DNA from: Actinomycetota bacterium
GTDB lineage: Bacteria; Actinomycetota; Actinomycetes; S36-B12
NCBI GenBank assembly: GCA_017857875.1
Contig: JAFMCH010000005.1
Coordinates: 1 to 57,006, forward strand
Length of the DNA: 57,006 nucleotides
Direction of reading: 5' to 3'
Part shown: one piece after another, positions 17,563 to 24,000 of the stretch
Layout: each line of letters opens with the position of its first letter
Position numbering within the stretch: the stretch's first letter is position 1
Made by a program: the position numbers and the translations under genes
The notes under the pieces: model-generated
The model's input: the letters and a program-made list of their open reading frames with translations, nothing else
What the model was told of the DNA's origin: nothing
Databases searched by the model: none

Positions 17563-17590
17563 TTGCGTTGCCTGACACCGCAGGTATAAA
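17563..17590 (+). promoter_or_regulatory. Putative sigma70-type promoter of the ncRNA
   Basis: TTGCGT (17563-17568), 16-bp spacer, TATAAA (17585-17590). Confidence 0.5.
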
Positions 17591-17596
17591 ACTAAA

Positions 17597-17842
17597 TTAC
17601 TGAGTCGCAAGACGCAGGTCAGATCGGGAAACGACAACTGCTCCGGGGCAGATCCGGTACACATCACATGCTGGTGGTGTGAGAGTCGGGACGCGGTCTG
17701 AGGACAAAGATCGAGCCGGTCTCGCGGAAACGCGAGGCGCGCCCCATTGAACAGCAACGTAGGTGTGGGCCCTAGGTAACTAGGCGGAACGATTGTCGTC
17801 CGAAGGAAAGACCCCTCGAACTCATACTTCGAGGGGTCTTTT
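17597..17842 (+). ncRNA. Candidate stand-alone structured non-coding RNA
   Basis: No credible ORF; promoter-like boxes upstream; hairpins at 17660-17681, 17721-17736 (GAAA loop), 17771-17784 (GTAA loop), 17785-17802; ends in a 14-bp intrinsic terminator. Confidence 0.6.
17807..17842 (+). terminator. Rho-independent terminator
   Basis: AAAGACCCCTCGAA - ctcatac - TTCGAGGGGTCTTT: 14-bp perfect stem, 7-nt loop, T-run. Confidence 0.88.
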
Positions 17843-17910
17843 CCATTTATACGACATGACTGGCGCTGCAGCCGGCCGACACACCGAAGGTTGCTCCGCT
17901 GAGGCTCGCC

Positions 17911-20900
17911 TCACAGGTACACGAACTCCGCGTCCACCTGTCCCACCTCAACGCCGGTCAGTGATGCCCAAGCCAGGCGGTAAATCTCTAGCTGAGCCGG
18001 ATCGGCCGAACCGACATGGCCGGTCTTCCAATCCACCACCACATCGCGATCACCACGACGAAACACCGCGTCAATGCGTCCCTTGACCTGTCTTCCCTGC
18101 CACATCAAGACGAAAGGTTGCTCCACGGCAATCGGTGCGCTGTGGGCAAACTCTGTGTCAGCCAATGCCTGTTGAATCGCCGCAAGATCCCATGCCTCAT
18201 CGATGCCTTCATCAGCAGCGCCGGGCAGGTCATCGACATCGAACAATCGCGTGGATCGATAGTGCTGCTCGATCATGGCGTGTATGCGTGAGCCGCGGTG
18301 TGCTGCTGCACTAGGTGCCGAAGGCATCGGACGATCCAACTGCGCCAGGGTGTCCTGGGGGTTTCGAGTAAACCGGTTCAGTTCCGTCACCGACACCTGC
18401 GCTGGCAGAGCGCTCAACGTCGACCGCCCGCCGTCGGTCAACTGCGCCAGCAGCCGCTGGGCCTCATCGGTGAGCGCAGCTGCCCTCGTCTGGGCCAACT
18501 GTTCGCGCACAGCGTCAGCGGCGACTTGATGCGCGCGATGTTGGGGCGATGACATGAGCCAAGGCGCGCCCGCGCGCGCAGCTTGCTGGATTGGATTAAC
18601 GGCACCATCCGCCGGGGGTTGTGCCCAAGCAACGATCTCGTGTCCAGCCCCGATGCACCAATCGCGCACCTCCATTAAGTACGGACCTGGTCCTCGATAC
18701 TCCTTGGCGGTTGCCGACCAACCCGATCCAGTCAATGTCACCGAGCGTTGAGCCCTCGTAACTCCTACATAGAGCAAGCGCCGCTCTTCAATCTCATCGT
18801 GTGCGTGACTGGCCGCGATGAAATCGTCGTGGTCCTTCTTTCGAGGCTCTTGCCTTGGCTCGAGACACAGTCGAGGAAAATCGCGCAGTTCCAACGGTGC
18901 ATCCGGCCGTAGCCCCCATGGCACTACCTCTGCGGTAGTCGGCCACGTCTGTCTATGTTTCCCGCTGGGAAACTCAGCCGCACGCAGACCGGCTATGAAC
19001 ACATGCGGCGCCTCAAGGCCTTTGGCCCCGTGCACGGTCATCAGGCGCACAACATCGTCGCCGGAGTCACTATCGAGATCGGGTCCACCTTCACGCCGAT
19101 AGGCAGTTTCGGTGTATGCCAGAAATGCCGGCACACTGACGCGCCCATCGAGATCACTGAACCCACCCGCGAGTTCCATCAGCGTGTATACGGAACGCGT
19201 ATTTTCTGCAACGACACTCAATGATCCGATCAGGGCTTCGGTCCCTAGTCCGGTTCGAGTCAACACACGCTGCAACAGGTCACGCGGAGCCTCTGCGTGA
19301 TGGTTGCGCAGGTACTTGATCTCGCGCGCTAGTGCGCCGAGACGCTCCCGCGCTTGGGCACTGAGCGACTGCGCAACAGGATCGTCCAAACCATCGGCTA
19401 CCTGAATGCACGCATCGGACAGACTGAGGCGCTCGTGGGCATCTTGCCCGTACACGCTCGCGGCTAAGCGCTCGGATAGATCAGGCGTGTGCTGAACTGC
19501 GGCACGTGGCTGTGTGGCCAAGTGTCGAGCGATGCCACCGAGCGCAGCCATATCGCGCAGGCCGATGCGCCAGCGCGGTCCGGTAGCGATACGGGTGAAT
19601 GCGGCATTCGCGGTCGGATCGACCACTACGTGCAGATAAGCGAGAACCTGTTGCACCAGTGGATGTCCTATCAGGGTTCGCGCACCGACGATTTGCGTGG
19701 GTACACCCCCAGCAGTGAGCATCTGATCAATGCAGGCGAGGTGATCGGCTGTTCGGGCCAGCACCAATACGTCGCGCCACGGGCCAGAATATGATGCGAT
19801 CTCCTGAGCTACCCAGGCGTCTTCATCATCTTGGGTGTTCCAGAACCCGGCTCGCACGAATCCTGGGCCCACATCTTCAGCCGCACAGGTGAGTGGACCC
19901 ACCCCCCGATGAATCGACCGCAACGGCTCGGCCAGTGAATTGGCCAGGTCAAGAATTGCTGCTGCGCTGCGGCGATTATCGGTCAGTGGGTATGTGTCGG
20001 CCGGTCGTTTTTCCTGAGCTTCGGATACTTGTGGAAAATGCTCGGCAAAACGATCGATGTTGTCCACGCTCGCACCCCGCCATCCGTAGATAGCCTGGCA
20101 AGGATCACCTACGGCGGTAACGGGATGGCCGTGCGCGAATAGTTCTTGGAGAAGCAGCCGCTGGGCAATAGAGGTGTCTTGGTACTCATCAAGAAGCACG
20201 AGACCATAGGTAGACCGCAGGGTTTGGGCTACGACCGGGAATTGTCGAACAAGCGACAAACTGAGTCGCAGTTGGTCGGCGAAGTCGACGACGTTGCGGT
20301 GAAATTTCGCCTGCCGAAACTCATCTACAACATCGGCCAGGATGATGCGCTGCCCGGTGCGCTCGATCATCTGCTGACCGATTGACTGCAGCCGCTTGAT
20401 GTCATTCAGGGCCTGAAGTTGTCCGAGAAGTGCAGAAGCATCCGACCGAAGGAGCTCGGTACTCACATCGAGTTCGGCCAGGGCACCGTCTAGGTCGATG
20501 ACTCGATCGACCATCGTGTCGGGGCCGACGGCGAATGACCCCAGATCAGCCGTTGTGGTCGCCACCACGCGCGAGGCAAGTTGGTAGCGATCGATATCTG
20601 ACAGGACGACAGACTTAGATTCGATACCGAGTCGCACTCCATATTCGGCGATGATGCGGCTGGCAAAGGCGTGATAGGTCGACACAGACACCGCGTCAAC
20701 GAAGCCCGGGTCTGGACCTGCACCGGCCGCGTCCAACACCCCTTCTTTGTTGGCCGTGGATAGGTATCCACGGATGCGTTCGGCCAATTCGGCCGCGGCC
20801 TTATTGGTGAACGTCAATCCTAAAATCTCATCGGCACGCAACTGACCGGTCATCACCGCCCAGACAACACGCGCCGACATCACCGCGGTCTTGCCCGATC

Positions 20901-21054
20901 CGGCACCGGCAACGATGCTCGCCGGTCGCAACGGAGCGCTCAGCGCAGCCCACTGTGGCTCACTAGGTGTGAAACCCAGCGCGAGCGACATGTGCTCACG
21001 GGCGTTCAATGACGCGGGGGCAACTGGCGACCGCGAGCGCGACGGTTCGGTCAT
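17911..21054 (-). CDS. adnB: AdnB-like UvrD-family helicase/RecB-type nuclease
   Basis: AGAGSGKTAVM Walker A, LLDEYQD Walker B, C-terminal GRIDAVFRRGDRDVVVDWKTG nuclease motif; adjacent to AdnA-like gene. Confidence 0.88.
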   Translation of the reverse strand: MTEPSRSRSPVAPASLNAREHMSLALGFTPSEPQWAALSAPLRPASIVAGAGSGKTAVMSARVVWAVMTGQLRADEILGLTFTNKAAAELAERIRGYLSTANKEGVLDAAGAGPDPGFVDAVSVSTYHAFASRIIAEYGVRLGIESKSVVLSDIDRYQLASRVVATTTADLGSFAVGPDTMVDRVIDLDGALAELDVSTELLRSDASALLGQLQALNDIKRLQSIGQQMIERTGQRIILADVVDEFRQAKFHRNVVDFADQLRLSLSLVRQFPVVAQTLRSTYGLVLLDEYQDTSIAQRLLLQELFAHGHPVTAVGDPCQAIYGWRGASVDNIDRFAEHFPQVSEAQEKRPADTYPLTDNRRSAAAILDLANSLAEPLRSIHRGVGPLTCAAEDVGPGFVRAGFWNTQDDEDAWVAQEIASYSGPWRDVLVLARTADHLACIDQMLTAGGVPTQIVGARTLIGHPLVQQVLAYLHVVVDPTANAAFTRIATGPRWRIGLRDMAALGGIARHLATQPRAAVQHTPDLSERLAASVYGQDAHERLSLSDACIQVADGLDDPVAQSLSAQARERLGALAREIKYLRNHHAEAPRDLLQRVLTRTGLGTEALIGSLSVVAENTRSVYTLMELAGGFSDLDGRVSVPAFLAYTETAYRREGGPDLDSDSGDDVVRLMTVHGAKGLEAPHVFIAGLRAAEFPSGKHRQTWPTTAEVVPWGLRPDAPLELRDFPRLCLEPRQEPRKKDHDDFIAASHAHDEIEERRLLYVGVTRAQRSVTLTGSGWSATAKEYRGPGPYLMEVRDWCIGAGHEIVAWAQPPADGAVNPIQQAARAGAPWLMSSPQHRAHQVAADAVREQLAQTRAAALTDEAQRLLAQLTDGGRSTLSALPAQVSVTELNRFTRNPQDTLAQLDRPMPSAPSAAAHRGSRIHAMIEQHYRSTRLFDVDDLPGAADEGIDEAWDLAAIQQALADTEFAHSAPIAVEQPFVLMWQGRQVKGRIDAVFRRGDRDVVVDWKTGHVGSADPAQLEIYRLAWASLTGVEVGQVDAEFVYL

Positions 21055-24000
21055 GTCAACACTTGTCCCTTCGACTGAGCGGGGCACATGCGGGCGAAGT
21101 CACAGGACGAACAGTGGCCGCCTGGCCGCGCGGTGAAGTTCTCATTGCGAATCACCCGAACAGCATCACTCAGTGACTCGAGCAGAAAGCCAGGGTCGCT
21201 GTGCTGGGTCAGCGGTGGCTGACTGACCTGCTTGGGCGATGGGTCATTTTTCCCGGAGTCGACGCTGAGATGGACAAGCGATGCACCCGCCGAAGACGAG
21301 GCCTCGCTATCGGCGCCTAGTTCTTCGGTCAGGGCCCCGGTCAAGACAGCGGCCTGATAAAGCCCCAGTTGTAGATGTTCGTGCACGGCCTGTCCGGTAA
21401 GAGCCTTGGCGGAGGTCTTGAAATCAACGATGTGCCAGGCACCATCTGGTGAAATCTCCAGGCGGTCGATTCGCCCATTGACCGCCAACTGGTCAGATTG
21501 ATACTCCGTCGAAGCGCGATCTTCGCCCGACTGCCCCACCACACCGGTTGAGACCATCGCAGCGAGAACGTCCAGGTCGATCGTTGCGCGGATGGCTACC
21601 TCGCTATGACTGAGCGTGTCGGCGTTTTCACGGTGGTAGTAGCCCAAACGCTCCAGGGCTTCACGAACGCTACGACGCTTTGCGATGGAGTACCACGGCA
21701 CACTGATGCCAAGGTGGGGCCATACATCATCAAGCCAGGCATCCATGGCGGCCATGTCCGGGGCGACTTCGCCTCGGGCCAGCGCCTCAGCCAGTACGTG
21801 CACCAGCTGGCCGATCGGTGCCGCGGTGGTCACCGGCTCGCTAGCACGAGCGTGGCGATCGAGAAACCAGCGCAACGGACAGGTAGTCAGGCTTTCAAGA
21901 CCCGAGGCGCTCATCCGAACGGGGGCATCGGGTGCATTGATCGGCGCGAGTCCCTGGCTCACCGGGAGCACGTGCCACCAGTTGTCCGGGTGAGCGGCTG
22001 GCACCAGCAGGCGTCCGGTGTCATCGGTCTGTCGGGCTAGCGCGGCGAGTTGCTCAGCGGCATGCGTGCGCTCATCGCTGGCGACGTCATCATCAATCAG
22101 GGTGGAGCGAAGTTGCGCAACTAGACCGGCCATGGTGCGCGGGCGTGGTGGGTGAGTGGGCCGGTCATCGGTTGTGATGTCCATATCTGCGATGAAACGG
22201 CTGGGCCGTTCGCCACCGGATGCTCCCGCATCGACGGTTGCCACTACCGTCGTTTCACGAGCGCGAGTGAGCGCCATCACCATCAAGCGACGCTCCGCCT
22301 CAAGTGCCTCGCCTCGTTGGCTTGGTAGGTCGCGAACGGCGGTTGGATCAAGAAGGTCATCGACACCGAGTAGGCCCGAAGACATGGAGAGGTCCGGCCA
22401 GCGGCCTTCGAGCGCATCGAGCACGAACACGGTGTGCCACTGCTGCCCGCGTGCCTGGTGGGCCGTCATGATCGACACGCCCTCAGCGCGCCTACCTCGC
22501 CGCGCGCCGATGGACTCGGCCGCGATGCGCTGACCCTCGATTGCGGTGATGAAGGACAAAGTGCCCACCACCCCGCTGTTGCGCTCGGTCAATCGTGCTG
22601 CCGTGGCAAACAGCGCGACAATCGCATCAAGATCATGATCACTGGCCCGGTGCCCGGATTGGGCCGCGCGGTACAGGCGTTGTGGCCACGCCACGCCATC
22701 ACTGTTGGCAACGGCGTTATTCCATAGGTGCCATAACACCTCAACCGGGCTCGCACCTTGTAGCACCAGCGCTCGCGCAGCGCCTAAGGTTTCGCCCACC
22801 TGGCGCAACTGTCGGGCCGCGGGCAGGTCGTCGAGGCCAGCGGGTAAGCCTGTGGATTCTCCCTCAATCAGCCCGATCAACGCCGTCCGCTGCAGCGCGT
22901 TGAAGGCAGCCGGGACATGGTCGGGCTCGGCCGCGCGCAATTGCTCACGCCAGGCTCGGGCCAGTTGCCGCTGCGTTGCCGGATCGGTAGCCCCGAAGGG
23001 TCCGGACACCAGGTCGGCCACCTGCGTCTCGGTGAGTTGGTCGGGAGCCACCGCGGCCCGCAGTGCTGCCAGAAGTTGAGCCACCGCTGGCTCCATCGGC
23101 AGGGGGAGGTCATCGGCCACTGCGATGACCGGGATATCTCGCGACTCCAGCACACGTCGGGCTTGGGCGATACTGGCTGTGCGTCGGGTAATGATGGCGA
23201 TCTGCGACCACGGAACACCCTGATCGATGTGACAGGCGCGGATATCTTCGGCCACGTGGGCCAACAGGTCGCTCTCGTGTGCATAAGCCCGGACAACCAA
23301 ATCGCTGTCGAGACCCTCGACATCGCGCGCAGCCGGTGCGCGAAGTTGCTGGAGATATCGAGCCGGCAGACCCGGGGAAGAGGCTGTACGCAGAAGCCGG
23401 CGAACCGCGGTTTGTAGGTGAGTGCCACCTCGGTACACCTGCGGCGCAACAACAATATGCTCGTCGAGATCATCAGCCCGAAAACGCTGATCAATGAAGT
23501 CCGCGATAACACGCACATCGGATCCACGAAAAGCCAGAATCTGCTTGGCCGGATCTGCGACGACGACGAAAGTGGTAGTGGCGCCGACAACGGCGTCAAG
23601 CAAACGACCCTGCAACAGGTCAAGGTCCTGGTAGTCATCGACGTACACGGCCTGATAGCGCTGATGCAAAATCGACCGCACCTCATCGCGGCGAGCGATT
23701 GACTCTGCCAATTCGATCAGACCGGAGTAGTCAACGACGTTTTCCAGACTCGCCGTTTGACGTTCGATCTCCGCCAGCCGCTGAAGTGCGCGCAGTAGTT
23801 GTTGTTCGGTAGGTGCCAATCTGTCGCCCACATGGACAGGCTGCTCACGGTCACCCGCAATGCGATAGCTGCTGAGAAATCGTCGGACCTCATTGGCAAA
23901 TCCCACCGTCGACAGGGCGGCTGTGAACTCACTCGGCCAGATCACCGACCGGTCGTCGACCGAACCGAGGATCAGGTCACGGATGCGTAGATCCTCCTCA

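Follow-up and report, generated by a model that had tools for sequence, protein, structure and literature searches.

Actinobacteria have no 6S RNA, and it is replaced in them by unrelated RNAs, Ms1 and CoRP. Ms1 (RF02566; MTS2823, scr3559) is a stand-alone actinobacterial RNA of about 300 nucleotides, which forms a single-gene unit with its own terminator and is weakly conserved in sequence (PMC4191392, PMC9130861). The CoRP RNA is 516 nucleotides long, has tRNA-Gln/Glu synteny, and has homologues only in Corynebacterium (PMC11077062). The RNA described here is encoded in a 57,006-nucleotide stretch of DNA from an Actinomycetota bacterium (contig JAFMCH010000005.1), referred to as the window. 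It resembles Ms1 in being a stand-alone actinobacterial RNA with its own terminator, a promoter of CTTGC...TACAAA appearance, and weak sequence conservation. By contrast, Ms1 has a 6S-like fold, a different terminator loop, and a different synteny, with a HAD hydrolase and 6C RNA. Similar to CoRP, which escaped detection by homology with 6S or Ms1 (PMC11077062), the RNA is structured and lineage-specific; however, there is no tRNA in the window, and the CoRP gene order of tRNA-Gln, tRNA-Glu, RNA, and tRNA-Glu is not matched. The 6C RNA (RF01066) is also a structured RNA of actinobacteria, but it is about 75 nucleotides long, has C-rich loops, and has no match in the window. Antisense RNAs with YUNR U-turns likewise expose a short loop starting with Y-U-N-R on a stable hairpin; they pair with a known target RNA, whereas the body of the window RNA is predicted to be a multi-arm fold. 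Few structured RNAs of bacteria at this size have a covarying tertiary contact, and where the function of such RNAs is understood, it is mostly a central one.

The scan of the window against Rfam 15 returned no match at the gathering threshold; relaxing the limit to E = 10 added only hairpin matches at chance level, and the RNA in related loci did not match any Rfam family. The first-pass annotation had recognized no tmRNA, RNase P, SRP, or 6C RNA signature, and the scan assigned no known family. The genome has its copies of RNase P RNA and tmRNA (RF00010 and RF00023) elsewhere (G000:C12, G000:C101). The window has no match to the Ms1 model RF02566, whereas the positive control, locus L188, was found at 235 bits. 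This control was located by HAD-hydrolase synteny; it lies beside a HAD hydrolase and 6C RNA, and its promoter reads CCTTGCTGTG...GTACAAAGG. An Ms1 oligonucleotide used as a pattern had no match in 396 genomes. The literature searched contained no paper printing the terminator hairpin sequence and none combining Nanopelagicales with non-coding RNA; the main text of two large surveys of non-coding RNAs does not name actinobacteria. The RNA has no described relative in Rfam or the literature searched. Judged by its sequence and that of its relatives, it is almost certainly a non-coding RNA of about 250 nucleotides that stands alone, is highly structured, has its own promoter and terminator, and founds a family not in Rfam. 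It was missed by catalogues because its letters drift quickly; the loop, promoter, and architecture alone reveal it.

The RNA gene is an independent transcription unit (Table 1). The promoter-like boxes TTGCGT and TATAAA, separated by 16 nucleotides, are present as claimed in the first-pass annotation, and in relatives the promoter lies at a fixed distance from hairpin P1. The motif precedes P1 by 39–40 nucleotides in 32 of the 37 distinct upstream regions of homologues, whereas shuffling yields 0.6. The layout in relatives is CTTGYG, a gap of about 16–18 nucleotides, and a TAGAAAT-like box, in many cases preceded by A/T-rich DNA. As had been claimed, the open reading frames listed for the window include no credible one in the sense strand of the RNA. 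An antisense frame of 76 amino acids has partial, short matches in relatives, which do not keep it as a reading frame. Neighbouring genes in the window encode a membrane acyltransferase-like protein, a lipoprotein, and AdnB; adnB lies downstream on the minus strand (17911–21087) and is convergent. Because the RNA has its own promoter and terminator, and adnB is convergent, it is not a leader of adnB. A cis-regulatory leader or riboswitch was rejected, since no co-directional gene follows. The original proposal of a stand-alone structured RNA between the lipoprotein gene and adnB is supported, also by its covarying homologues and the lack of an Rfam match.

The minimum free energy (MFE) of the window RNA, terminator included, is −116.7 kcal/mol, compared with −84.5 ± 4.6 kcal/mol for dinucleotide shuffles (z = −7.0). 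The hairpins CTCGCG-GAAA-CGCGAG and CCTAG-GTAA-CTAGG are perfect, as first described. The helix CACATCAC-atgctg-GTGGTGTG is present; however, it includes one G-U pair and is not fully perfect. The fourth helix proposed, CGGA(A)CGA-ttg-TCGTCCG, is not conserved. Relatives pair that strand with the 5′ strand of P3, which closes the 3′ arm, and the local hairpin competes with this closing stem. The outer stem of P3 scores 18.3; strand swapping gave 13.3 ± 0.5, with no swap of 500 as good. The two GNRA loops, cited earlier as a sign of a folded RNA, exist, but they are not distinguishing, because tetraloop types interchange among relatives. The terminator was also recognized correctly; however, it is longer than the 14 base pairs reported, with 16 pairs and a seven-nucleotide loop, and its T-run is short. 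A simple terminator scan of the window did not list this hairpin.

Homologues and covariation, on which the initial proposal had been made dependent, were both found, and the covariation is strong. A DNA search of 59 relatives identified full-body matches with 67–70% identity in four genomes of the family to which the window belongs, and terminator-centred matches in most other genomes of that family. A 19-letter pattern from the terminator apex, scanned against GTDB genomes, recovered 65 stretches, almost all of them actinobacterial by title; L049 and L079 appear to be chance matches within other sequence. Two of the GTDB records, L063 and L071, are titled Rubrivirga sp. and Bifidobacterium breve, and their copies are Nanopelagicales-like; these bins are probably misnamed or mixed. 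Twenty homologues without the terminator were aligned without reference to structure (alignment A1), and the consensus fold has compensatory changes at 23 of 30 pairs. The covariance model R1, built from these 20 sequences and leaving out the terminator and the P3 outer stem, matches 20 of the 59 relatives, with body-alone E values from about 1e-51 to 1e-16 (best 2e-51). Thirty-seven distinct homologues aligned to R1 (alignment A2) have two-sided compensatory changes at 27 of 30 pairs, in an alignment that is fitted to the model, leans towards structure, and includes the 20 sequences that built R1; the structure-free A1 agrees with it on the fold. In A2, 95.5% of cells are paired, compared with 79.5% after shuffling, a control inflated by relatedness among members, and 24–40% with the partner strand slid. 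The covariation shows that one predicted fold is conserved: P1, a P2 arm with P2a and P2b, and a P3 arm with P3a, P3b, and P3c. Some genomes of the same family, for example G003, G011, and G023, have no match in the DNA search or with R1 or the terminator model R2; thus, the RNA is not needed everywhere or has diverged beyond detection. Genome G004 contains three divergent paralogues with identical heptaloops (L003, L026, L029), and a diverged subtype, in which P2 is longer, comprises L029, L025, L083, and L065.

Table 1 Features of the RNA gene in the window and recurrent neighbours of the RNA in relatives
Feature	Position	Strand	Basis
RNA gene, transcription unit	17563–17846	+	
−35 box TTGCGT	17563–17568	+	read in sequence; CTTGCG/CTTGTG in relatives
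−10 box TATAAA	17585–17590	+	read in sequence; TAGAAAT/TACAAAT in relatives
Predicted transcript, about 250 nt	17597–17846	+	promoter and terminator; start from position of −10 box
P1 hairpin GTC-GCAA-GAC	17604–17613	+	helix 1 of A2; 2 of 3 pairs compensatory, third invariant
P2 arm, CAGAT (17620–17624) × GTCTG (17696–17700)	17620–17700	+	helix 2 of A2; 94% paired, 4 of 5 compensatory
P2a hairpin CCGGG/TCCGG	17643–17657	+	MFE fold and alignment
P2b hairpin CACATCAC-atgctg-GTGGTGTG	17660–17681	+	helices 4–5 of A2; loop complementarity
P2b loop strand TGCTG (loop–loop contact)	17669–17673	+	
P3 arm, 17702–17713 × 17790–17801	17702–17801	+	MFE fold; strand-swap test
P3a hairpin CTCGCG-GAAA-CGCGAG	17721–17736	+	helices 6–7 of A2, all pairs compensatory
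P3b hairpin	17739–17769	+	helix 8 of A2; loop complementarity
P3b loop strand CAGCA (loop–loop contact)	17752–17756	+	
P3c hairpin CCTAG-GTAA-CTAGG	17771–17784	+	helix 9 of A2, all 4 pairs compensatory
Terminator hairpin, 16 pairs	17805–17843	+	MFE fold; R2 match, 62.5 bits
Near-invariant heptaloop CUCAUAC	17821–17827	+	comparison of loci
Olefin/beta-lactone-like neighbours	L033, L036, L037, L042, L044, L071, L077 and others		

The hallmarks of the RNA are a loop–loop contact and the heptaloop of the terminator, neither of which was named in the first-pass annotation, and not the GNRA loops. In the window, the P2b loop TGCTG is complementary to the P3b loop CAGCA. The two loops are complementary in nearly every member, with L107 as the exception, while the letters change: GTGC/GCAC, AATGTTG/CAACATT, and AAATGC/GCATTT occur elsewhere. 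Second-type members of the same family (L006, L008, L009, L010) show, by eye, other solutions: GTGCC/GGCAC, TGTCG/CGACA, GTACC/GGTAC, and GTGTC/GACAC. The mean score of the loop pairs is 13.0; exchanging loops between members lowers it to 11.5 ± 0.3, and none of 2000 swaps was as good, although this control is inflated by relatedness of the members. At the class level, a test based on MFE folds gave a score of at least 13 for 13 of 25 members, with 5.8 expected and a maximum of 12 in 200 swaps; the result is only moderate, and complementary loops are enriched. The predicted contact would lock the two arms together.

The heptaloop CUCAUAC hardly varies, whereas the stem that closes it changes freely, with A-U, U-A, G-C, or C-G as the pair next to the loop. 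Members found by pattern carry CUCAUAC by construction. Of three members outside the pattern set that were found by the body alone, L108 has CTCATAC on a changed stem, L114 has TTCATAC, and L113 has lost the heptaloop. The model R2 of the terminator hairpin, which was trained on CUCAUAC hairpins, matches 123 of 396 Actinomycetes genomes at E ≤ 0.01, with some of the matches being chance terminators. In the loop census, comprising 40 fetched loci and the earlier ones, CTCATAC occurs in 14 families (f1, f7, f11, part of f14, f16, f17, f19, f20, f26, f32, f33, f36, f37, and f41), a class-wide constancy that is partly selected by the training of R2, whereas the freely changing stem is not. The rest of f14 has CTCATGC, and f25 has CCCTTAC or CCCTTAT. 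The heptaloop is absent from the loci of f22, f24, and most of f31, whose R2 matches are probably chance terminators. Such terminator-only matches, for example L172, L174, L179, and L185, together with the terminator being the best conserved piece, would suit an ordinary long intergenic hairpin that is conserved only for termination, next to an unrelated GC-rich structure. This explanation is hardly tenable and is already contradicted: the body alone finds homologues (1e-51 to 1e-16) with extensive compensatory change, and terminators do not need a fixed loop.

In the favoured mechanism, which is put forward tentatively, the RNA would be abundant, and its folded core would expose the heptaloop for binding by a conserved partner. 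The contact-locked core would provide a compact, stable scaffold, the letters of which hardly matter, and the heptaloop would be the recognition site for a conserved partner acting in trans. U-turn loops of the YUNR type present the bases that follow, and the C-U-C-A of the heptaloop fits this pattern. Since the heptaloop is constant over many families while the stem is rewritten, a conserved protein fits better than changing mRNA targets and is probably the likelier partner. The complete explanation, identity and mechanism together, could equally well prove right or wrong. The alternatives are, in decreasing order of probability, base pairing with mRNA, RNA polymerase binding, and tRNA mimicry.

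A single-stranded, seven-nucleotide loop that begins in a YUNR-like manner and persists although its stem is rewritten, on a transcript from an independent unit with a terminator, might also be expected of a base-pairing regulatory RNA. The U-turn-like heptaloop would then be an antisense seed for GUAUGAG, which contains AUG and would make start regions the candidate targets, and the folded body would merely be a stabilizer. This function is rather doubtful, because a seed unchanged across many families requires an unchanged target, and small RNAs of that kind seldom have a rigid multi-arm core. GUAUGAG is absent from the 16S, 23S, RNase P, and tmRNA sequences of the CUCAUAC-bearing genomes examined. 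The complement of the CCCUUAC loop, GUAAGGG, is found near the 5′ end of 23S rRNA in f25 (L204, L205), probably by chance, since f32 genomes do not have a matching change. With no consistent complement in the sequences examined, rRNA, RNase P, and tmRNA were rejected as targets of the heptaloop.

The CAU anticodon loop of tRNA-Met and tRNA-Ile2 is CUCAUAA. Six of the seven positions agree with the heptaloop, and the equivalents of U33 and C34-A35-U36 are kept in nearly all families, with a pyrimidine at position 32. The RNA could thus imitate an anticodon arm, and titrate MetRS, TilS, or another anticodon-loop enzyme, or enter the ribosome. Such mimicry is very improbable: nearly all members end the loop with C instead of A, the f25 loop is CCCUUAC, G replaces A37 in part of f14, and an anticodon stem is far shorter than the stem of this hairpin.

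The Ms1-like CTTGC...TACAAA promoter, together with A/T-rich upstream DNA, suggests that the RNA is highly expressed. If abundant, it may act stoichiometrically, comparable to Ms1, CoRP, or 6S on RNA polymerase. By analogy, it could itself bind RNA polymerase as a lineage-specific functional counterpart of these RNAs, and it would then fall within an already known functional kind. Actinobacteria use unrelated structured RNAs in this role (Ms1: PMC4191392, PMC9130861; CoRP: PMC11077062), and the promoter looks similar to that of Ms1. RNA polymerase binding is nevertheless unlikely. The multi-arm fold with a loop–loop contact differs from the long bubble hairpin of 6S and Ms1, and neither R1 nor R2 matches the Ms1 locus L188 or, in a Corynebacterium-like genome, the interval that is syntenic to CoRP (L225). 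Ms1 synteny (HAD hydrolase, oxidoreductase) was not seen in the loci examined, with no HAD hydrolase among the neighbours of the RNA in the window or in the neighbour clusters read.

The family extends far beyond a single intergenic region. Outside the family of the window, R1 matches are only weak; however, all 13 with E < 1 among 36 class-level loci, one of which (L183) belongs to the window's own family, are on the strand of the terminator hairpin and at most about 360 nucleotides upstream of it. Among these loci, L170, L171, L176, and L177 share the promoter appearance and carry a P1-like hairpin. Common descent beyond the family of the window is likely from these sequence comparisons. A more speculative, and improbable, extension is that the class Actinomycetes has here an ancient RNA of housekeeping type, which was overlooked since its sequence is rewritten between families and which acts on a universal machine through the heptaloop. 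Its only fixed parts would be the architecture and the CUCAUAC loop, tRNA-CAU-like and with a U-turn, and the candidate machines would be the initiating ribosome, a tRNA-handling enzyme, or RNA polymerase. The terminator hairpin is present in Phycicoccus, Knoellia, and Pedococcus, cultivated actinobacteria that would make the function directly testable if the class-wide interpretation is true.

The genes flanking the RNA differ among loci. By reading, the upstream genes in many members are tRNA-guanine transglycosylase-like and YhhQ-like, and the downstream cluster is olefin-synthesis-like. Others carry PAC2 or a sigma factor, confirmed by Pfam, close to the RNA or up to a few kilobases away. 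The four flanking proteins of the window have no homologue near any other copy seen, and the adnB neighbourhood, in which the first-pass annotation had placed prospective homologues, is private to the window among these loci: the RNA is not tied to adnB or the lipoprotein gene. A phage or mobile origin was rejected, because there is no match in phages and none in viral contigs. The set of genes that adjoins the RNA in many relatives (Table 1) resembles one for olefin or beta-lactone synthesis, with an epimerase, a hydrolase–ligase fusion, and a thiolase, assigned by reading and not by profile. In f32, a tRNA-Leu(GAG) gene follows the RNA terminator by about 55 nucleotides in the same direction (L170 2861–2947, L171 3093–3179). 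Two related CCCUUAC-loop hairpins are about 4.1 kb apart in f25 (L166 5001–5039 and 9154–9192, minus strand; L173), and this spacing repeats in several f25 genomes. In Phycicoccus, Knoellia, and Pedococcus (L031, L052, L068, L069, L091), the body upstream of the hairpin reads as a tandem array of units of about 40 nucleotides, which contain CUCGGUG/UUCG-type tetraloop hairpins and are followed by the same terminator.
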